DNA of 20,621 bases from a virus, in the IMG/VR virus record IMGVR_UViG_3300010885_044505, positions 1 to 20,621 of that record. One strand, 5' to 3'. The notes under the pieces were generated by a model. The model was not told where the DNA came from, ran no database searches, and saw only the letters and a program-made list of their open reading frames with translations. Both the position numbers and the translations under genes were made by a program. Positions 4,039 to 20,294 of this stretch are shown piece by piece. The first letter of the stretch is position 1. Each line of letters starts with the position of its first letter.

Positions 4039-5686
4039 AGAGAGGAGGGGGCGCTTTTCCATATTGCGATTTGCTTTCGTGGATTTCCGCCAACCTTTCG
4101 GGGCTGCGGGTGAGGAGGCCAAGGTCTCGTAGATGTCGCAGAGCCATAGACACCGTGTCAACTAGGTCGTCATGCTTGCCACGAGGGAAGGACGATACTT
4201 GCCGGATGACGGCCTCGGCCCACGTTGTGCCGGGGGCATAGATCATGCCCTCTGCGAAGAGATGCTGGACGCTATAGAGGCGGCCCAGCTTGTCGATGGA
4301 CTTGGGGTCGTACATCTGGACGGCCCACGGCTCGTGGCTGAATAGGCGGCGGATTTCCTGCGCCACGCTGTGGCCTGCCGCCTTGTTCTCGATCAGCAGC
4401 TTGTCCACCTTTAGCGCCTTGCAATCCTTAGCGATCTTCTCGACCAGCTCATGCAACTCCAGCCGCTCGGCCCAAGCGCGCATGAGGATGACGCGCGGGA
4501 CGGCGTTCAGGTCTGAGGTGTAGCTTGTGTTGACGTAGCCGTCGAAGCCTTTGCCGTACCGATCCACGTTACGGGTTGCGGTCGTGGCGGGGTCGCCTGA
4601 GAAGACGCCCCAGATCGTGCAGGCGCTAAAGTCACCGCGCTCTTCGGCCTTGGAGCTGTAAGCGGTGTCGATGGACGCCACGATAAAGTCGAGGTTCGGA
4701 AAGTGGCTGTGGTCCCAAAGCTGCCACCAGCTATCCTTAACGACGTTACCGCCGCGAGGCGAAGGCACCTGCTGGTGCTGCGAGGCCACGGCATACGGAC
4801 CCATTGCCGCCTCGTCGCGGTCCACCACCTCGGGCGGGAAACGCTGTGGGAAAAGTAACTCGCCCTCCTCCTCGCGCGGATCGAGGTAGCCCAGCTTGGT
4901 CGCGACCCCTGACCGCCATGCCTCGTAGCGCATGGGCAGACAGATATGGTCGTAGACGCCTTGAAAGCCTTTGCGCTCAAGGATGACGCCAGAAACGTCT
5001 TCTTCGTGCAGGCGCTGCATGATAACGACGATGGCGCTGGTCTTCGGGTTGTTAAGGCGGGTTGGGACGGCTTCGGTGAACCATTCGAGCGTCGTGTGGC
5101 GCATAGCCTCGCTGTTGGCGCTTTCGACGCTGTGAGGGTCGTCGATCAGCACCCGGTCGCCGCGCGAGCCGGTGATTGAACCAGCCGCCAGCGCCTCGCG
5201 GAACCCGGTCGCCGTGTTCTCGAACTTGGTCTTGGCGTTCTGATCGCCGGTTAGCTTTACCCGGTCGCCCCAATGCTTTTGATACCAATCGCTGGTAACG
5301 AGGCGGCGCATCTTCGTGCTGTCGCGGATTGCAAGGCCCTGCTGATGGGCGGCGCATATGTACCGCATATGGGGCATGTTGCGAGGCCCCCATTCCCACG
5401 AAGGCCAGAAGATGTTGACGATCATCGACTTCATTGTGCCGGGCGGCACATTGATCAGCAGGCGATTGTATGGCGATCCGTCGTCAAGAACGTGGCCGTC
5501 AGTGATTGCCTCAAGATGGGCGGCAATCAAGTCAATGTGCCAGTTGTGGACGTAGGGCTGGCCGGGCTCTACGACGTGCCACGCTTTTCTGATGAAGTTG
5601 GCCAGCGACAGCTCGCAGCGGCGCTTCTCGATGTTCAGAAGCGTTGACCTGCCGTCGATGTCGCGGGGAAGATCAATCTTTCCCAA
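4028..5686 (-). CDS. terL: Terminase large subunit (packaging ATPase-nuclease)
   Basis: A two-domain DNA-packaging motor of 552 residues from the start chosen here. The ATPase domain shows Walker A NVPPGTMKS (about 79-87), Walker B VLIDDPH (about 179-185) and a coupling segment VVIMQRLHEED (about 220-230). The C-terminal RNase H-like nuclease domain begins with the first acidic residue in ASIDTAYSS (Asp340); a later Glu in LLIENKAAG and the Asp pair in GKHDDLVDT complete the expected metal site. It cuts concatemeric DNA and pumps it through the portal. No ATG lies near the N-terminus. I chose TTG at 5686 (MGKIDLPRD), overlapping the small subunit gene by 14 bases; TTG at 5719 would add 11 Arg/Trp-rich residues. 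The 3' end overlaps the next small gene, consistent with one operon. Confidence 0.95.
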   Translation of the reverse strand: MGKIDLPRDIDGRSTLLNIEKRRCELSLANFIRKAWHVVEPGQPYVHNWHIDLIAAHLEAITDGHVLDDGSPYNRLLINVPPGTMKSMIVNIFWPSWEWGPRNMPHMRYICAAHQQGLAIRDSTKMRRLVTSDWYQKHWGDRVKLTGDQNAKTKFENTATGFREALAAGSITGSRGDRVLIDDPHSVESANSEAMRHTTLEWFTEAVPTRLNNPKTSAIVVIMQRLHEEDVSGVILERKGFQGVYDHICLPMRYEAWRSGVATKLGYLDPREEEGELLFPQRFPPEVVDRDEAAMGPYAVASQHQQVPSPRGGNVVKDSWWQLWDHSHFPNLDFIVASIDTAYSSKAEERGDFSACTIWGVFSGDPATTATRNVDRYGKGFDGYVNTSYTSDLNAVPRVILMRAWAERLELHELVEKIAKDCKALKVDKLLIENKAAGHSVAQEIRRLFSHEPWAVQMYDPKSIDKLGRLYSVQHLFAEGMIYAPGTTWAEAVIRQVSSFPRGKHDDLVDTVSMALRHLRDLGLLTRSPERLAEIHESKSQYGKAPPPLYDA

Positions 5687-6131
5687 GCGTGGCCACCAGC
5701 GCGGTCTCCAACGCCTCAAGCTGATCGTCGTCTAGCTCAGACACGTCAAGCGTCCGCAACGTCACCGCCTGCTGGATGGGGCCGCCGTTTGCGCCTGTGA
5801 CCTCTCGGCGCTCAGAGTAATCATCCTTGAAACGCGCCGAGACGGATTTCGTCCAAACAGTTGCGTTGAAGCGATCAAGATACATGCCAGTTCGCCCAGC
5901 TTTCTCCCACCAAGCCTGTTCGTGAAGCTTCGCGCGCGCTAGGGCTGTAGAAAAATCTTCGTGCGCGCGAGACCAATCTATGAGTGTAACGCGATCTACA
6001 TCAAAGTGAGCAGCTATTTCAGCAGGCGAACAGCCTTCCTTACCAAGCTGTACAGCGATCTCGCAATACTCTGGCTTGTAGAGCGAAGGGCGACCAACTG
6101 GCCGCTTATCAGGATCTTTCTTTTTAGTCAC
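5673..6131 (-). CDS. terS: Terminase small subunit
   Basis: A 152-residue protein that should recognise phage DNA and hand it to the large terminase. An HTH lies at about residues 33-55 (CSPAEIAAHFDVDRVTLIDW). The central segment AWWEKAGRTGMY and the C-terminal REVTGANGGPI motif are typical of phage small terminase subunits. The start is GTG at 6131, placed six bases after an AGGTGG ribosome site; a longer frame to TTG at 6197 exists but lacks such a site. It is the first gene of the minus-strand packaging operon and overlaps the large subunit gene. Its promoter should lie within 6132-6250, but I cannot assign one convincingly. Confidence 0.88.
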   Translation of the reverse strand: MTKKKDPDKRPVGRPSLYKPEYCEIAVQLGKEGCSPAEIAAHFDVDRVTLIDWSRAHEDFSTALARAKLHEQAWWEKAGRTGMYLDRFNATVWTKSVSARFKDDYSERREVTGANGGPIQQAVTLRTLDVSELDDDQLEALETALVATLGKD

Positions 6132-6213
6132 GACCCACCTGTGCGATTGTTTCAACGATTGTAACTTCACGCATAAAGATAAGCCCGAACGACCCAAAAC
6201 GCAATATCTAAAA

Positions 6214-6246
6214 TAAATCGCAAAATCGCCGCGAATATGCGATTTA
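6214..6246. repeat. 9-bp perfect inverted repeat in divergent control region
   Basis: TAAATCGCA at 6214-6222 is the exact reverse complement of TGCGATTTA at 6238-6246, with a 15-base spacer. It sits between the start of the leftward packaging operon and the rightward promoter at 6251, so it could be a two-site operator serving either direction. A half-site separation of 24 bases centre to centre, just over two helical turns, would suit a dimer pair on one DNA face. Function is inferred. Confidence 0.5.
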
Positions 6247-6250
6247 CCGC

Positions 6251-6279
6251 TTGACCCCGCAATGGTTGCGCCTTATAGA
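6251..6279 (+). promoter_or_regulatory. Sigma70-type promoter P1 with palindromic operator in the spacer
   Basis: The -35 element TTGACC (6251-6256) and the -10 element TATAGA (6274-6279) are separated by exactly 17 bases. The spacer holds the palindrome CGCAA-TGG-TTGCG (6258-6270), well placed for a repressor to block RNA polymerase. The leader that follows carries CATCAACAACGGAGCA (6285-6300), which includes the ribosome site for the gene at 6306. A near-copy of the whole cassette lies exactly 648 bases downstream. Confidence 0.7.
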
Positions 6280-6305
6280 TAGGACATCAACAACGGAGCA
6301 GGCAA

Positions 6306-6542
6306 ATGAAACTAACCACTGACTATATCCGCCGCATCGCCAAACGTGACAGCCGCATCGACGAGATTGAAATTTGCCCTGACCATCAGGTTACAGTTTG
6401 GCTTGACCCAAAGTGGACTTGGAATGCCCTCGATGGGAACATCACCTGCATGACCTACAACGTGCAGGGTTCAGACGAGTGTTACCGAGACGATGTTATG
6501 ACCTTCCTTGAACATGTCCGCAACATTGAAATCGCCAAGTAA
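6306..6542 (+). CDS. Hypothetical small phage protein
   Basis: A 78-residue, mildly acidic protein that I do not recognise. It begins with a basic helix (YIRRIAKRD), then an Asp/Glu-rich beta-like stretch (IDEIEICPDHQVTVWL), and ends with a short helix. The start ATG has a CGGAGCA ribosome site at the expected distance and follows the P1 promoter, so expression is probably strong. It is the first gene of the rightward transcript, a position often used by early phage genes that modify the host. No signal peptide or membrane segment is visible. The role is unknown. Confidence 0.7.
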   Translation: MKLTTDYIRRIAKRDSRIDEIEICPDHQVTVWLDPKWTWNALDGNITCMTYNVQGSDECYRDDVMTFLEHVRNIEIAK

Positions 6543-6591
6543 CCGGGGACTCCAGCCCCCCACCATCCCTCACTCAACAAGGAACACAACA

Positions 6592-6879
6592 ATGTCCAAC
6601 CTCGCCACCCTCGCAGACCACTACGCCGCCCTCGACGCCCACATCAAAGAGCTGAAAGCCAAGCAGGCTCTCATCCGCGACGAGATTCTCGCCACCCGCG
6701 AGAACGTTATCCACGGCACGCGCGCCATCGTGAAGGTCTATGAAAGCTTCCCCAACACCTTCAGCAAGGATTTGGCCGAAACGCTTCTAAGCCCCGCCGA
6801 CTTCCTGCGCTGCCACGCCAAGGCAATTAAGCCGACGATCCGCTTGAGCGTCACGGCGACAGCTAAGGCTTTGGCCTAA
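6592..6879 (+). CDS. Hypothetical coiled-coil phage protein
   Basis: A 95-residue protein starting at ATG 6592, after an AAGGAA ribosome site. I prefer this over an in-frame upstream start at 6508, which would run inside the previous gene. Residues about 5-40 form an amphipathic helix rich in Ala, Lys and Glu (AALDAHIKELKAKQALIRDEIL), probably a coiled coil. It is followed by a compact segment with GTRAIVKVYE and a basic C-terminus. It is separated from the preceding gene by about 50 bases that hold a small GGGG/CCCC hairpin. It is probably in the same transcript as the gene at 6306. Function is unknown. Confidence 0.75.
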   Translation: MSNLATLADHYAALDAHIKELKAKQALIRDEILATRENVIHGTRAIVKVYESFPNTFSKDLAETLLSPADFLRCHAKAIKPTIRLSVTATAKALA

Positions 6880-6887
6880 AAATCATC

Positions 6888-6910
6888 GCGGGGTGCGCTT
6901 GACACCCCGC
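6888..6910 (+). terminator. GC-rich hairpin overlapping the -35 of promoter P2 (possible weak terminator)
   Basis: GCGGGGTG (6888-6895) pairs perfectly with CACCCCGC (6903-6910) around a seven-base loop. It begins eight bases after the stop of the preceding gene, which suits a transcript end. However, it is followed by AACCATTGC rather than a T-run, so it would be a weak or factor-dependent terminator. The -35 hexamer of the next promoter lies in its loop and right arm, so the two elements are merged. Confidence 0.45.
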
Positions 6911-6927
6911 AACCATTGCAGTAAATA
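6899..6927 (+). promoter_or_regulatory. Promoter P2, near-duplicate of P1, with palindromic operator
   Basis: The -35 hexamer is a consensus TTGACA (6899-6904), followed by a 17-base spacer and TAAATA (6922-6927). The spacer contains GCAA-CCA-TTGC (6909-6919), the same half-sites as in P1. The leader repeats CATCAACAACGGAGCA exactly (6933-6948) before the ATG at 6954. Distances from -35 to start codon are identical to P1, so the two transcripts are probably co-regulated. Confidence 0.68.
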
Positions 6928-6953
6928 TACGTCATCAACAACGGAGCAAACAA

Positions 6954-7232
6954 ATGACTTTCAACTTCTTCACTCTCGGCGAGACCACCCCCTCCCTCAC
7001 CTTCGGCGCTACAGGCGAAGGCATGTGGGACGCCATCTGCGAGAACATCGTGGATCACGTCCTCGGCGCCGACCCCTACTCCGAAGCCGCCGCACGCGAT
7101 CTGGTCGAGATCGTCGCCATGCAGACCCCGGATGAGTCGGAGTACACCGAGGCGGTGTTCGTGCAGGGCAAGCTGGTCGGTTCGATGGACACGCCCTTTT
7201 GGGCGGACCATATCCATTACGTCAAGATCTGA
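6954..7232 (+). CDS. Hypothetical acidic phage protein
   Basis: A 92-residue acidic protein with no family I recognise. It opens with a hydrophobic, Gly/Thr-rich stretch (FNFFTLGETTPSLTFG). A helix with ICENIVDHVLG follows, then a Glu/Asp-rich half ending in FWADHIHYVKI. The start ATG is set by the duplicated promoter/leader cassette P2 and its CGGAGCA ribosome site. It heads a chain of closely packed genes to 8049. There is no membrane segment or signal peptide. Position first behind a strong regulated promoter suggests an abundant early product. Confidence 0.72.
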   Translation: MTFNFFTLGETTPSLTFGATGEGMWDAICENIVDHVLGADPYSEAAARDLVEIVAMQTPDESEYTEAVFVQGKLVGSMDTPFWADHIHYVKI

Positions 7233-7242
7233 GGGGAACGCC

Positions 7243-7422
7243 ATGACCACCGAATACAAAATCATCATCAACTATAACTTTGCTTCTCCGCACAAAAGCT
7301 GGGACTGGTGCGCCGTCACCGACGATTACGACGGGCAGGAAACTGACCCCATCGGCTACGGGGCCACGCCAGCCGAGGCTGTGGCGATCCTGATGGAGCA
7401 ACTGGCGGATCGCGAGCAATGA
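7243..7422 (+). CDS. Hypothetical 59-residue phage protein
   Basis: The ATG at 7243 follows a GAGGGG ribosome site after a ten-base gap from the previous stop. The product is acidic, with a beta-like first half (YKIIINYNFAS) and a YDGQETDPIGYG segment, then a short helix beginning TPAEAVAIL. That second half resembles small phage proteins in which a GYGATP turn leads into a helix; I cannot name the family. The stop overlaps the next start as ATGA, so the next gene is probably translationally coupled. Confidence 0.68.
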   Translation: MTTEYKIIINYNFASPHKSWDWCAVTDDYDGQETDPIGYGATPAEAVAILMEQLADREQ

Positions 7423-7583
7423 GCGGCCTGACCCTCCCCGAACCCACTAATGAGCTTTGCAGCTTCCACAACCCCGAATTGTGGGCGCTGTTTTGCCTGT
7501 ACCGCCACCGCTCCCATGAGCCCAGCTACGTCTGGACCGAGGCGGCTGTTGTTGATGCTCTCAAATATTTGGAGCCAAAATGA
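7419..7583 (+). CDS. Hypothetical 54-residue protein
   Basis: A short gene whose start and stop both form four-base ATGA overlaps with its neighbours (7419-7422 and 7580-7583), the main reason to accept it. The product begins MSGLTLPEPTNEL and contains two Cys and two His (CSFHNPELWALFCLYRHRSHE), which might bind a metal but do not match a named finger. Trp and Tyr are frequent for its size. Function is unknown. Confidence 0.6.
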   Translation: MSGLTLPEPTNELCSFHNPELWALFCLYRHRSHEPSYVWTEAAVVDALKYLEPK

Positions 7584-7786
7584 CCCCCCTCAAAACCGCC
7601 ATGCAACGGCATGGCCTCACGGTGGCCGACGTAGCCCTCCTGACGGGCTCCAAGAGCCGGATGGTAGAGTATTGGCGGGCGGGGCGTTGGCCCCCGCCAC
7701 GGGCTATCCTAATCCTTCTGGCGGCCCTTGATCAGGGCAAGATCAACATCAACTGGCTGGCAGAGCAATTGGAGGTAACACCATGA
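7580..7786 (+). CDS. Small HTH DNA-binding protein (Cro/XRE-like)
   Basis: A 68-residue protein whose fold pattern fits a Cro/CI-type helix-turn-helix. Helix 2 to helix 3 reads LTVADVALLTGSKSRMVEYWRAG (about residues 13-35), with Ala/Leu, Gly and hydrophobic positions where expected. A PPPRAILILLAAL helix and a C-terminal tail follow. It is coupled by ATGA overlaps to genes on both sides. A candidate for the protein that binds the CGCAA-N3-TTGCG palindromes in P1 and P2, since P2 would drive this gene and feedback would be natural. That link is an inference. It could also be a YdaS-like or minimal excisionase-type protein. Confidence 0.72.
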   Translation: MTPLKTAMQRHGLTVADVALLTGSKSRMVEYWRAGRWPPPRAILILLAALDQGKININWLAEQLEVTP

Positions 7787-8049
7787 TTGACGAGACCGGG
7801 AACGTGTATGGGCGGCTTGTAGTGCTTGGCACCAATGGCAACATCACCAAACATAAACGATTGCTATGGTTATGTAAGTGTTCCTGCGGCGCTGAAAAAG
7901 AGATCGAAGGTCGGTATCTACGTCGCAGAAGTGTACAATCCTGCGGGTGCCTCCAGCGCGAGATCAGCCGCAAGCGGTATCGCAATGCCAAAAGCCCTAT
8001 CTGGTGCCGCAGCCCCCTCGACACCATTGACGAGGATATTATTGGTTGA
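7783..8049 (+). CDS. Small Zn-ribbon phage protein (related to N-termini of AP2/HNH phage proteins)
   Basis: An 88-residue basic protein. The N-terminus (MIDETGNVYGRLVVLG) and the cysteine pattern CKCSCG (Cys31, 33, 35) with CGC (Cys54, 56) are typical of a short phage domain that also starts many AP2- or HNH-type DNA-binding and homing proteins. Here only the ribbon and a basic tail (REISRKRYRNAK) remain, with no HNH motif. It may be a stand-alone DNA- or RNA-binding module or the remnant of a longer endonuclease. The start overlaps the HTH gene as ATGA. It is the last gene before the GTAC-repeat region, where it faces the convergent primase-helicase gene. Confidence 0.75.
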   Translation: MIDETGNVYGRLVVLGTNGNITKHKRLLWLCKCSCGAEKEIEGRYLRRRSVQSCGCLQREISRKRYRNAKSPIWCRSPLDTIDEDIIG

Positions 8050-8086
8050 GGTACTCAACTAGGGGACCGAACTTCTCGCCGCACCG

Positions 8087-8126
8087 ACCGTACCACCGTA
8101 CCCCTCCCTAGGAGGGGTGGTACGGT
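8087..8126. other. Bulged 16-bp hairpin in the GTAC region
   Basis: ACCGTACCA (8087-8095) pairs with TGGTACGGT (8118-8126), and CCCCTCC (8101-8107) pairs with GGAGGGG (8111-8117) around a CTA loop. Five unpaired bases (8096-8100) form a bulge on the left arm. No T-run follows on either strand, so it does not look like a simple terminator. A second, smaller hairpin, CGTTTTG-CCC-CAAAACG, follows at 8143-8159. Confidence 0.6.
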
Positions 8127-8157
8127 ACGGTACGGTTTCGGGCGTTTTGCCCCAAAA

Positions 8158-8169
8158 CGTACTAGTACG
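8158..8169. repeat. 12-bp perfect palindrome, copy 1
   Basis: CGTACTAGTACG is its own reverse complement and contains two GTACs flanking a central CTAG. It is followed by GCGAAAGTACGG. An identical palindrome lies 75 bases downstream. It is a likely protein-binding site within the repeat region. Confidence 0.6.
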
Positions 8170-8232
8170 CGAAAGTACGGTACGGTACGCCGGTACGGTT
8201 GAGCTAAGCAATAAGCCCAAAACGTACCGCAA

Positions 8233-8244
8233 CGTACTAGTACG
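8233..8244. repeat. 12-bp perfect palindrome, copy 2
   Basis: Second copy of CGTACTAGTACG, here followed by CCAAAAGTACGG. The 75-base separation from copy 1 is close to seven helical turns, so both sites would face the same side of the DNA. Confidence 0.6.
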
Positions 8245-8285
8245 CCAAAAGTACGGTATGGTACGGTTAAGCATAACAATAGCTA

Positions 8286-10301
8286 TCATGGCTTTGCCCT
8301 CTCCCCTTTTTTCCTTAAAAGCAATCCTGACGCATATGCCCCGTCGCTGACCACCCACCCGTTTTCAAATGGGCTGATGATCTCGGCTGCCAAGAGCGCA
8401 CCCACGGGCTGATCAGCCGACCCCGGCCTCATCTTCTTATCGGCGGTCGCATCATTGCAACTTTCCTTCAGCTTCGCCCTAAGCGACGACCGCGTGACAT
8501 ATGGCGCGCCCTCCTTTTCCTCGGCCCCAGAGGCGTACCAAGCCGCTTCAAATATTTTGAAAAACACCGACTCCTTGCTCTCCTTTTTGGCGGCCACAGG
8601 GGCCTCCGTGAGGTTCACAACGGCGCTCGTGACGGGCTGCTCGTCCTCATCAAACCAACCGGGGATGGTGACGGACGTAAGCTCGGCATAAACCGGCTCG
8701 GCCAATTCGGCATCCTTGGACTTGCGCTGGACAATTGACATTGGCGATCCATCCTTGCCGGGCACAATGCTGATCTCGATGTCCAGCGCCCCGCGCCATG
8801 CGGACGAACCTCGCGCCCTATGCTGGGCCTCCTCGCTGACGCCGGTATGGTGTACGAGCAGCACCGAACATCCAAATTCCGCCATCAGCGCCCCGCAGGC
8901 GTCAAGCATGGTCTTGGCGTCTTGTGCGGAGTTTTCATCCCCCAAAAGAAATCTGTGGAGAGTGTCAACGACGATTAGGCTGGGCCGCTTCGGGAGCGCC
9001 CTGATGTTGTCCACCACCCGCATGTAGCCAGCCGGTGTGTTTAGATCGCACCCGTCGCGAGAGAGCCACATGGACAGCGGCCCCGCGTTCTGGTGGACTT
9101 TCCAAGCCGCTACGCGCCCGCGCAGGCCGTGATGCCCCTCGCCCGCCAGATAAACGACCGTTCCCGTTCGAACGCGGTTGCCTGCCCATTCTGGAACGCC
9201 TGCCGCCATGCGCAGGCACCAATCCAGCACCACGAAGGTTTTGCCGCCCCCGGAGGGTCCGTGGACCATAATCAGGGCTTTATCTTGTAACCATCGTTTG
9301 ACCAGCCACGATATGGGGGCGGGCTGGGCGCAGAAGTCATCAGCGGGGATCAGCCAGTCGTCTTTGGGCGGGACGAGAAGGGCCGCCAAATCATTACCGG
9401 CCTGCGCGTAATCATTGGCGTCCCCCGGCTCTGGCGGCATAACCATGCGAGCCCCGAACTTGGCCGATGCCTGTTCAGCATACCTCTGGCCAACGCCGGA
9501 GGCATCGTTGTCCGCCACAATTACGATGTCCTGCGTGGCCCCGTGGATTTCGCGCAAGATGCCGGTGACGGGGACGAGGTTGGAGGCGGAGTAGGCGACG
9601 ATGCAGGGGCGGTTCGTGGCCTCGTGGATGGTCGCGGCGGTGGCGAAGCCCTCGGCAACATAGAGGGTGCCCGGCTCGTCATTGGTGCCGATCTGCCAAA
9701 AACGAGAGCCTGTCTGTGCGCCTGAGTGATACAGTTTGCCGCCGTCTGCGTCGATGTATTGGAGACTTGAAAGGCTTCCGGCCTGATCGTAGAGCGGGAC
9801 GATTAGCCGTCCGTCGCCGGTGACGCGGGCGCCGTGGGTCTTGATGCCCTTGCGGGCAAGATAAGGATGGTCTGGGCTTGCCGGGCCGCATTCGGACCAA
9901 ATGGTTTCGACGGTGTTGGCGGCGACTTCTTGTTTCTTGGCGTTCTCTGCGTCTCTGAGGGCCTTTGCTTCGGCCATGCGGCGCATATGGATCATTTCTT
10001 CGGTGTGAGTCAACTTGCGGCCAATGTCGGCTCGCCAAGTTGATTCAATGCCTGAGCGCCAACAACCAAAGCGCCCGGCGGGGATGCCGTCCCCGAAGGC
10101 GATGTAAAATCCGGGTTTATCGTGACCGCCTGATCCTTTAGTGCCTGAATTAAACCTATGGATTTTTCCGTCAAGCAGGATCTCTTTTGGCGGGGTTAGG
10201 CCCGCAGCCATGATTGCGTCGCGGAGCTGGTCTTCGGGGGGCAGCGTGTTTTTGGCTGGCGGGGACCAAGGACCGCCGAAAATGTCTGTAATATCAACCA
10301 T
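8286..10301 (-). CDS. TOPRIM primase / RepA-like hexameric helicase fusion (replication protein)
   Basis: A 671-residue replication enzyme. The N-terminal part carries a primase-type region and a TOPRIM fold with Glu217 in VAEGFATA and Asp264/Asp266 in VADNDASG. The C-terminal part is a RecA-fold ATPase of the RepA/AAA_25 kind: Walker A GPSGGGKT at 348-355, Walker B SLIVVDTLHR near 441-450, and a LLVHHTG sensor near 481-487 followed by an ARGSSAW motif. Together these suggest it unwinds the fork and primes the lagging strand, much like other phage and plasmid primase-helicases. The ATG at 10301 has an AAGGTG ribosome site. The frame extends to 10382 but those codons overlap the upstream HTH gene. 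Transcription runs toward the GTAC region just past its stop. Confidence 0.9.
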   Translation of the reverse strand: MVDITDIFGGPWSPPAKNTLPPEDQLRDAIMAAGLTPPKEILLDGKIHRFNSGTKGSGGHDKPGFYIAFGDGIPAGRFGCWRSGIESTWRADIGRKLTHTEEMIHMRRMAEAKALRDAENAKKQEVAANTVETIWSECGPASPDHPYLARKGIKTHGARVTGDGRLIVPLYDQAGSLSSLQYIDADGGKLYHSGAQTGSRFWQIGTNDEPGTLYVAEGFATAATIHEATNRPCIVAYSASNLVPVTGILREIHGATQDIVIVADNDASGVGQRYAEQASAKFGARMVMPPEPGDANDYAQAGNDLAALLVPPKDDWLIPADDFCAQPAPISWLVKRWLQDKALIMVHGPSGGGKTFVVLDWCLRMAAGVPEWAGNRVRTGTVVYLAGEGHHGLRGRVAAWKVHQNAGPLSMWLSRDGCDLNTPAGYMRVVDNIRALPKRPSLIVVDTLHRFLLGDENSAQDAKTMLDACGALMAEFGCSVLLVHHTGVSEEAQHRARGSSAWRGALDIEISIVPGKDGSPMSIVQRKSKDAELAEPVYAELTSVTIPGWFDEDEQPVTSAVVNLTEAPVAAKKESKESVFFKIFEAAWYASGAEEKEGAPYVTRSSLRAKLKESCNDATADKKMRPGSADQPVGALLAAEIISPFENGWVVSDGAYASGLLLRKKGERAKP

Positions 10302-18725: not shown

Positions 18726-19724
18726 TCAAGAGTATTTTTCCTGCAACTGACGCATGTCAAGAAACCGATGCGATATGATGTGACCGGATTTGATATTCAA
18801 TTCATAGATGCCGTAGGACCAACCCGAGGTAGCCGTTCCTGCGTACTTGGCGACGTATCCGTCAGGCATGGCGCTTCCCAAATTGAGAACCTCGATGCTA
18901 TTGTTAATTCCGATCTTTGGTGCCTTACGAAAGGACGAGCGATGCGTATGACCAAAGACTACGCTGTGAGTTGCATGATTAGCTATCTGGTTTTCGCTGT
19001 TTTGGCCGCCGTAGGGCTTGCCCATTATGTTCTTGGGAACGTGCGTAAACCCAACCCCGTCGATAAATAGCCATTGCCCATAGGGATGCAGCCGCCAGCG
19101 ATACCGAGCGCAAAGTTCCTCAAATTGTATATACAACGTCCCTACAGTTTCTGCGTTTTTGTTCTCAAAGCGTTGAATTCGCTCTTCGTGGTTGCCCGCC
19201 GTCAACTCCATTGGGATGTTTAGGTCTTTGATTTCTTTGAAGAACAGGCACATGGCCTCTTCGCAGCTTTCCATATCTGTTTTGAAGGATGGCCGCATGG
19301 CGTGGTTGACGCTGCCCGGTGCGTCATGCGTGGAAACAGAATCCCAAGAACAGAAGTCGCCTATTTGCACAATCCGGTTAGGAACGACTGCGGCACAATG
19401 TCGCGCAATCCACTTGAACCGATCTTTTGCCATGCCGGGCTGGTCATGAGTGTCGCCTATAGCGATGACTGTAGTGCTGCTATCCGTGCGTCCGCCAATG
19501 TATTTTGGCTTGCTTGTTGAGAAAAATGATAACCTTTTCTTCAAATCGTCTATTTCTTTTTCCATATCCTGAATTTTAGTAAACGCCGCTGGAACCCTAG
19601 TTGGCGTATTGGTTTTTATCCGAGCCCGAACGGTTGATTCCGCCACACCCAAAAACTTGGCCGCCTTGCGGATGGACCCGTGCTTTTTGCACAAATCCTG
19701 AACTGCTTGCGTTGTAAGGTACAT
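18726..19724 (-). CDS. HTH-metallophosphoesterase
   Basis: A 332-residue protein. Residues 6-40 look like a helix-turn-helix (GSIRKAAKFLGVAESTVRARIK), followed by a short coiled coil (51-68). A calcineurin-like phosphoesterase domain then shows all main metal motifs: GDTHD (90-94), GDFCSWDS (122-129), GNHEER (177-182), His250/His253 and GHTH (258-261). The family includes nucleases, phosphodiesterases and protein phosphatases; a fused DNA-binding domain suggests a nucleic-acid substrate or a promoter target. The ATG at 19724 follows GGGGAAC; the frame continues upstream to 19826 but would cross the divergent gene's promoter. It is the first gene of the minus-strand block ending at 17758. Confidence 0.88.
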   Translation of the reverse strand: MYLTTQAVQDLCKKHGSIRKAAKFLGVAESTVRARIKTNTPTRVPAAFTKIQDMEKEIDDLKKRLSFFSTSKPKYIGGRTDSSTTVIAIGDTHDQPGMAKDRFKWIARHCAAVVPNRIVQIGDFCSWDSVSTHDAPGSVNHAMRPSFKTDMESCEEAMCLFFKEIKDLNIPMELTAGNHEERIQRFENKNAETVGTLYIQFEELCARYRWRLHPYGQWLFIDGVGFTHVPKNIMGKPYGGQNSENQIANHATHSVVFGHTHRSSFRKAPKIGINNSIEVLNLGSAMPDGYVAKYAGTATSGWSYGIYELNIKSGHIISHRFLDMRQLQEKYS

Positions 19725-19796
19725 TTTTATGTTCCCCACTCGGATGAGTGTGTGTATCATAGAATTGTGAAAAATTAAAAAAGCTGTGGAGCAAAA
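19725..19796. promoter_or_regulatory. Divergent control region
   Basis: Seventy-two bases separate the leftward metallophosphoesterase from the rightward DnaA-domain gene. On the minus strand TATGAT (19760-19755) is a good -10 candidate with no clear -35. ACTC-GGAT-GAGT (19738-19749) is a small inverted repeat. TGATACACA on the minus strand (19758-19750) is one base from the DnaA-box consensus TTATNCACA. GTGGAG before the ATG at 19797 is the rightward ribosome site. Confidence 0.4.
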
Positions 19797-20294
19797 ATGA
19801 AAACGATGGAAGAGATGCAAGCGCACTATAAAGCTGTTCGAGAGCGTTTAAGGTACACGCCGCCCTCAAAGCCAATCATCATCCCCCCGATTGAAGCGGC
19901 AGCGCCGGAGCCGGAGCCAGCGCCCGCTCCAGCACCTGAGCCCAAAATACAGATTGTAAGCATAGCTCCTTTGCCGCCTGCCCAGAGCATTTTGCATGAA
20001 ATCGCTCTTAAACATGATGTAACGGTCAGGGACATAACAGGGCGAGATCGCAAAAAGAAATACATGAAAGCCCGGCAAGAGGCCGCTTACGAGTTGAAAT
20101 TAAGGTTAAACCTTTCTTTCCCGAGGATTGGGCGCGTTCTGGGTAAGCGGGATCACACAACCATCTTGCACAGCGTTCGCAAACACGCAGAGTTAAATAA
20201 TTTGCCGCCGTTAAGCTTTCCTAAAGAAGTTCAGGCGCATAGTGACTACACCAAAACGGAGAACCAAAATGAACATCTTGAACCTAGCCTATGA
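19797..20294 (+). CDS. DnaA domain IV-like DNA-binding protein
   Basis: A 165-residue protein with a helical N-terminus, a Pro/Ala/Glu linker (PEPEPAPAPAPEP, about 37-49) and a C-terminal domain (about 62-133) that matches the DNA-binding domain of DnaA. It shows HEIALKHDVTVRDITGRDR, ARQEAAYEL, LSFPRIGRVLG and the signature KRDHTTILH (117-125). The AAA+ ATPase region of full DnaA is absent, so it should bind DnaA-box-like sites without ATP-driven assembly. It may recruit or block host initiation, act as a regulator, or mark the phage origin. The ATG at 19797 has a GTGGAG ribosome site. The end overlaps the small membrane gene at 20269. Confidence 0.88.
   Translation: MKTMEEMQAHYKAVRERLRYTPPSKPIIIPPIEAAAPEPEPAPAPAPEPKIQIVSIAPLPPAQSILHEIALKHDVTVRDITGRDRKKKYMKARQEAAYELKLRLNLSFPRIGRVLGKRDHTTILHSVRKHAELNNLPPLSFPKEVQAHSDYTKTENQNEHLEPSL

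Follow-up and report, generated by a model that had tools for sequence, protein, structure and literature searches.

The window analysed here is an entire IMG/VR virus record of 20,621 bases that carries a tailed-phage gene set, with the terminase subunits and portal encoded on the minus strand and the early genes on the plus strand; other genes include a primase-helicase, a Sak4-like protein, a Cas4-domain exonuclease and a helicase. The divergent junction at ~6.2 kb contains a promoter (promoter A), and a second promoter (promoter B) lies 648 bp downstream (Table 1). The genes that diverge from promoter A are those of the terminase subunits, and no divergent repressor gene faces the early promoter. 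A search of the DNA of positions 5600-8100 against 50,697 phage records returned no match. The complete relative MW202675 has a terminase that is 65% identical, and its gene order is different and uninformative. Two matches in genome collections lie on ~60-kb contigs binned with 'Opitutae' MAGs, which are probably phage contigs.

Both promoters combine a TTGAC -35 element, GCAA-N3-TTGC half-sites in the spacer between the -35 and -10 elements, and a common 16-nt leader. A sequence-only reading of this DNA had described these elements, and its coordinates and sequences for both copies were correct, as was the offset of 648 bases, which holds for the -35 and for the leader alike. The same reading assigned a 17-base spacer to each promoter. 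This is the case for promoter A, and promoter B can be read with 17 or 18 bp, the latter being the spacing of promoter B in relatives. The -10 of promoter B is poor, and operator B, with 4-bp arms, is a weaker palindrome than operator A. The two-base shift of the operator between the promoters, also noted earlier, is real when measured from the -35; across the family, it is from the -10 instead that the operator keeps its distance, and operators A and B both lie within 1 bp of the family-wide position relative to that element. A reading of the spacer palindrome as an RNA hairpin or attenuator was rejected, because the palindrome is upstream of the predicted transcript start and is absent from its own promoter's transcript.

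Table 1. Features of the early region (window positions; a dot marks features given without a strand).
Feature	Position	Strand	Details
Inverted repeat upstream of promoter A	6215..6245	.	AAATCGCA-N15-TGCGATTT; from sequence
Promoter A	6251..6279	+	-35 TTGACC 6251-6256, 17-bp spacer, -10 TATAGA 6274-6279; from sequence, kept in relatives
Operator A	6258..6270	.	CGCAATGGTTGCG; from sequence
Leader, first copy	6285..6300	+	CATCAACAACGGAGCA; Shine-Dalgarno GGAG 6295-6298, ATG 6306
First gene behind promoter A, 78 aa	6306..6542	+	no assigned function; exchangeable slot
Second gene of transcript A, 95 aa	6592..6879	+	no assigned function; kept in relatives
Inverted repeat straddling promoter B -35	6888..6910	.	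GCGGGGTG-N7-CACCCCGC; no T-run; from sequence
Promoter B	6899..6928	+	-35 TTGACA 6899-6904; -10 TAAATA 6922-6927 (17 bp) or AAATAT 6923-6928 (18 bp)
Operator B	6908..6920	.	CGCAACCATTGCA; from sequence; reverse complement of operator A over 12 bases (GCAATGGTTGCG, 12/12)
Leader, second copy	6933..6948	+	CATCAACAACGGAGCA; from sequence; ATG 6954
First gene behind promoter B, 92 aa	6954..7232	+	no assigned function; relatives on 12 viral contigs
Small gene of transcript B, 59 aa	7243..7422	+	no assigned function
Small gene of transcript B, 54 aa	7419..7583	+	ATGA overlap with the start of the next (HTH) gene
XRE/Cro-like HTH protein, 68 aa	7580..7786	+	proposed autorepressor; recognition helix at about residues 26-33

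The three small genes behind promoter B and the helix-turn-helix (HTH) gene that follows them are closely spaced on one strand, with the last two overlapping, and apparently form a single transcript; their order is unchanged in relatives. Homologs of the promoter A gene and of the HTH protein (as a close relative) were found on four contigs each, and a tblastn scan for homologs of the 95-aa gene found nothing. None of the cargo proteins tested against PHROGs and NCBIfam matches a known family.

Family matches of the 68-aa HTH protein itself are weak, with PHROGs repressor matches at an E value of 1.4e-4, Pfam matches below the cut-off, no match in NCBIfam, and weak profile matches to Aca1-3 and to Aca2 chains of known structure. 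The AlphaFold2 model has five helices at a pLDDT of 91.8, and its structural matches, to many HTH proteins, include Aca2 (Z 8.0 over 62 residues, rmsd 3.0, a moderate score given that Z values of 8 or less are common for folds this small), Aca10, Aca1, HigA2, P22 c2 and 434 Cro. The predicted model and these matches place an XRE/Cro-CI-type DNA-binding fold in the protein. The cultured-phage collection holds no close homolog; tblastn of the HTH protein and of the 6954 gene against cultured phages found none, and divergent members of the HTH family gave weak matches only. The aligned family is too divergent to serve as a scan query. The sequence-only reading had proposed a second HTH regulator at 10294, a candidate that was rejected, as this position falls in the N-terminal part of the minus-strand primase-helicase.

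The window by itself makes a limited case. Identity of the 16-nt leaders proves little alone, because 46 of 500 shuffles (9%) hold at least one exact 16-mer repeat. The palindrome GCAANNNTTGC occurs three times against 0.77 expected, a count that 2 of 100 shuffles reach and that is modest by itself, and the combined pattern TTGAC-N1-6-GCAA-N3-TTGC occurs twice against 0.004 expected, which none of 500 shuffles matches. The decisive evidence that the palindromes exceed chance is comparative. Most IMG/VR relatives carry a 13-bp palindrome in the same place in the promoter spacer, and 64 of 90 promoters have its centre 9 bp upstream of the -10, these and the other comparative counts being drawn from related sequences that are not independent. 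The operators fall into classes, with CGCAATNATTGCG in the closest relatives of the window, CGAAATNATTTCG in others, CGAATTTTATTCG in L022 and CGAACAATGTTCG in L023, and homologs of the 68-aa protein are encoded downstream in phages of every class. Changes in one half-site are matched in the other: operator positions 3 and 11 are complementary in 18 of 19 distinct operators found through the protein (shuffle mean 10), and, with operators from the scan included, 39 of 40 distinct operators show at position 11 the mirror image of the change at position 3. The former is the cleaner number, because sites from the scan had to match at positions 1-4.

Many class II relatives have a second operator-like site 28-31 bp upstream, about three helical turns away, a spacing that would be compatible with cooperative binding. 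The operators of long records gather in a single early region; one 61.7-kb record, for example, has seven of them in 2.6 kb, and a few isolated pattern matches elsewhere in such records are probably due to chance. Most of the matches listed from a broad scan for the class I operator likewise look like chance.

The association between operator and HTH gene was also seen when the protein was not used. An IMG/VR scan with the pattern TTGACA-N1-2-GCGAA-N5-TTCGC found 53 stretches, and 28 of 47 promoter-like sites are followed by an HTH gene 100-2423 bp downstream, as compared to none of 13 sites that have no promoter features (Fisher p 7e-5). For 15 of the other 19 promoter-like sites the contig ends soon after; in the case of L168 and L187, it ends soon after the last operator. 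The HTH-like ORF is very weak at L169/L213, which represent one promoter, and L182 and L205 have sites that fit the operator pattern and no HTH gene. Two records found by the DNA pattern only, L035 and L064, belong to an unrelated lineage in which a distant HTH homolog is present, with the CGCAA-N3-TTGCG sites GCGCAACAGTTGCGC in front of that homolog and CGCAATCATTGCG in the next promoter, and seem to be a separate, independent case of such control. In L013, the HTH protein is divergent and neither operator class is found; instead, three promoters, at 4541 and 4920 on the plus strand and at 1576 counted on the reverse strand, have a common CATGCAGAGTTGACATG straddling the -35.

At the level of individual residues, a recognition code in which Glu reads C and Gln reads A was rejected, as Glu occurs with CGAAA in L206 and Gly with GCAA in L015. 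Met at residue 28 pairs with C at operator position 3 in three lineages versus twelve without (Fisher p 0.002), which, from a hand-made table of lineages that are not independent, is a lead only.

The two promoters had been taken for copies of one duplicated cassette. The leader with its ribosome binding site does look copied in the lineage of the window, and the remainder of that claim did not hold: in relatives, A and B are distinct promoters in places of their own. The pair is not a simple cassette duplication, because the operators are reverse-complementary and the two promoters of relatives carry clearly different leaders. Since leader B of the window resembles leader A, copying of the leader within this lineage is the likeliest reading of the sequences. 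The genes behind the two promoters also differ in turnover, with seven unrelated first genes behind promoter A in eight phages and two families behind promoter B in seven; family-wide, 92 promoters lead to 88 distinct first ORFs in 30 families. By this pattern, promoter A heads an exchangeable slot for early genes.

The palindromes are very probably the operators of the phage's own XRE/Cro-like protein, which would exert negative feedback over a small set of early promoters. The promoter architecture, the conservation of the operators, the paired changes in their half-sites and the co-occurrence with homologs of the 7580 HTH protein can all be read directly from the DNA, and the proposal of repressor control of two early transcripts, made from the window alone, is well supported by the last three. 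We infer that, early in infection, host RNA polymerase would fire both sigma-70-type promoters, and that the HTH protein, encoded at the end of transcript B, would then accumulate. A dimer of the protein would occupy the 13-bp palindrome in each spacer, blocking polymerase and shutting down both transcripts, including the one from which the HTH protein itself is made. Such a negative feedback loop may serve to limit the amounts of potent early proteins, and the HTH protein would be an autorepressor of two to four early promoters per phage. There are loose ends for the repressor model, namely L020, where one operator of each class is found on one contig and the HTH gene is off the contig; L017, where operator B is lost; L182, L205 and L169/L213 from the scan; and the weak -10 of promoter B in the window.

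A narrower version of the repressor model is that the locus is a true acr-aca operon, in which the HTH protein would be an anti-CRISPR-associated regulator and the small genes would inhibit CRISPR-Cas or other defences. In acr-aca operons, core promoters hold inverted repeats (as for every Aca family), sometimes with a second repeat, a downstream gene encodes an HTH autorepressor, and repression has been shown experimentally (PMC9410906). The locus is similar in that a small HTH protein is encoded downstream of small early genes with no assigned function, an inverted repeat lies within the core promoter, many relatives have the second upstream site, the predicted model resembles Aca2 as well as Aca10 and Aca1, and unrelated genes replace the first gene of promoter A between phages. 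However, two to four promoters share the operator here rather than a single operon, no cargo protein matches a known family, and Aca proteins of known structure are only weakly similar in sequence, with no close match, making a true acr-aca operon rather unlikely. A further idea, less likely than not, is that a family of uncultured phages employs one fast-evolving Aca-like repressor to gate several early 'expression sockets', in which unrelated small anti-defence or host-takeover genes replace one another. If so, the co-varying operators would provide a searchable signature, a spacer palindrome plus an HTH gene, for new anti-defence genes. Genes swapped behind conserved promoters are good candidates for anti-defence or host-takeover functions in phages that have no close cultured relative.

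Inverted repeats inside core promoters are also a feature of lambdoid operators, and the HTH protein could be a CI-like lysogeny repressor, with the two promoters being lytic promoters of a temperate phage. As with Cro and CI of lambda, 434 and P22, an XRE-type fold is combined with a short palindromic operator that overlaps the promoter spacer, and more than one promoter would be controlled, an arrangement resembling that of lambda. In contrast to the lambdoid systems, the HTH gene is within the repressed transcript itself, and each promoter has one operator, often with the second site upstream in class II relatives. In addition, neither a tyrosine integrase nor a resolvase was found in the virus records of nine relatives, which span 30-62 kb and are possibly incomplete, the window itself being a fragment. 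A lysogeny repressor is thus improbable.

The sites could instead be bound by a host regulator exploited by the phage, with the HTH protein doing something else. In the comparison, which covered phage sequences, operator class tracks the lineage of the phage HTH protein, promoter-like sites co-occur with the HTH gene, and the divergent HTH protein of L013 pairs with a different operator, all of which make a host regulator very unlikely. MerR-type activators typically have a palindrome between the -35 and -10 and would correct an over-long spacer (19-20 bp), but in 84 of 90 promoters the spacer is 17-18 bp long, with nothing to correct; moreover, the fold is XRE-like and the window protein has no MerR match, leaving such an activator with a very slim chance. 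Chance palindromes in two unrelated promoters would agree with the mild over-representation of the palindrome alone in the window, but are contradicted by the two copies behind TTGAC and by conservation with mirrored changes across relatives, and can practically be dismissed.

The preferred reading, autorepression by the HTH protein, also has parallels in other systems. HigA-type antitoxins are autorepressors with a small XRE-like fold, and the structural match to HigA2 and the autoregulated operon proposed here are in keeping with these; unlike HigA, no toxin partner was recognised beside the HTH gene. The start-associated sequences of cluster K mycobacteriophages likewise place a repeated leader together with inverted repeats in front of several genes of one phage (PMC3203893). 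In their extended sites the repeats measure 17 bp, the spacer varies and no binder is known (PMC3203893), whereas the palindrome described here is 13 bp long, sits within a canonical promoter and has a candidate protein. Literature searches found no description of this repressor/operator family, and the control scheme is of a known kind, in a family that appears to be unstudied. An isolated palindrome is thereby placed in a predicted repressor-operator family whose natural variants in specificity lend themselves to work on the co-evolution of small HTH proteins and their sites.

Several other elements were noted in the region and in relatives. The inverted repeat upstream of promoter A has a counterpart in L016 (about 730-770), AATTCGCA-N15-TGCGAATT, in which a change relative to the window is matched on both arms; the conserved consensus of the two is AAWTCGCA-N15-TGCGAWTT, and the repeat may bind another protein. 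The repeat straddling the promoter B -35 is present in L015, L016, L019 and L077 and absent in L018, and is a possible end-of-transcript hairpin of transcript A. In class II relatives, a DnaA-box, TTATCCACA, is found just upstream of many early promoters (for instance, L014 4903 and L009 4904), with 54 copies, overlapping loci among them, versus 8 of the reversed pattern; none is found in the window. A leader inverted repeat, CGGTC...GACCG, also seen in class II relatives (for instance, at L006 4926 and 5319), lies at the expected mRNA 5' end of 48 of 79 CGAA-class promoters and of 0 of 13 CGCAA-class promoters, and is possibly an mRNA-stabilising hairpin.

Elsewhere in the window, a metallophosphoesterase encoded at 18726-19826 on the minus strand has an HTH-like segment at its N-terminus, and 19797-20294 encodes a DnaA domain IV-like protein. 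Between two convergent genes, a GTAC-rich block at 8090-8270 contains runs of GGTACGGTACG and two copies of CGTACTAGTACG, and holds 16 of the 46 GTAC sites of the window. As single-stranded DNA this block folds far better than shuffles (z -5.1), and it is a possible terminator, replication or packaging element.
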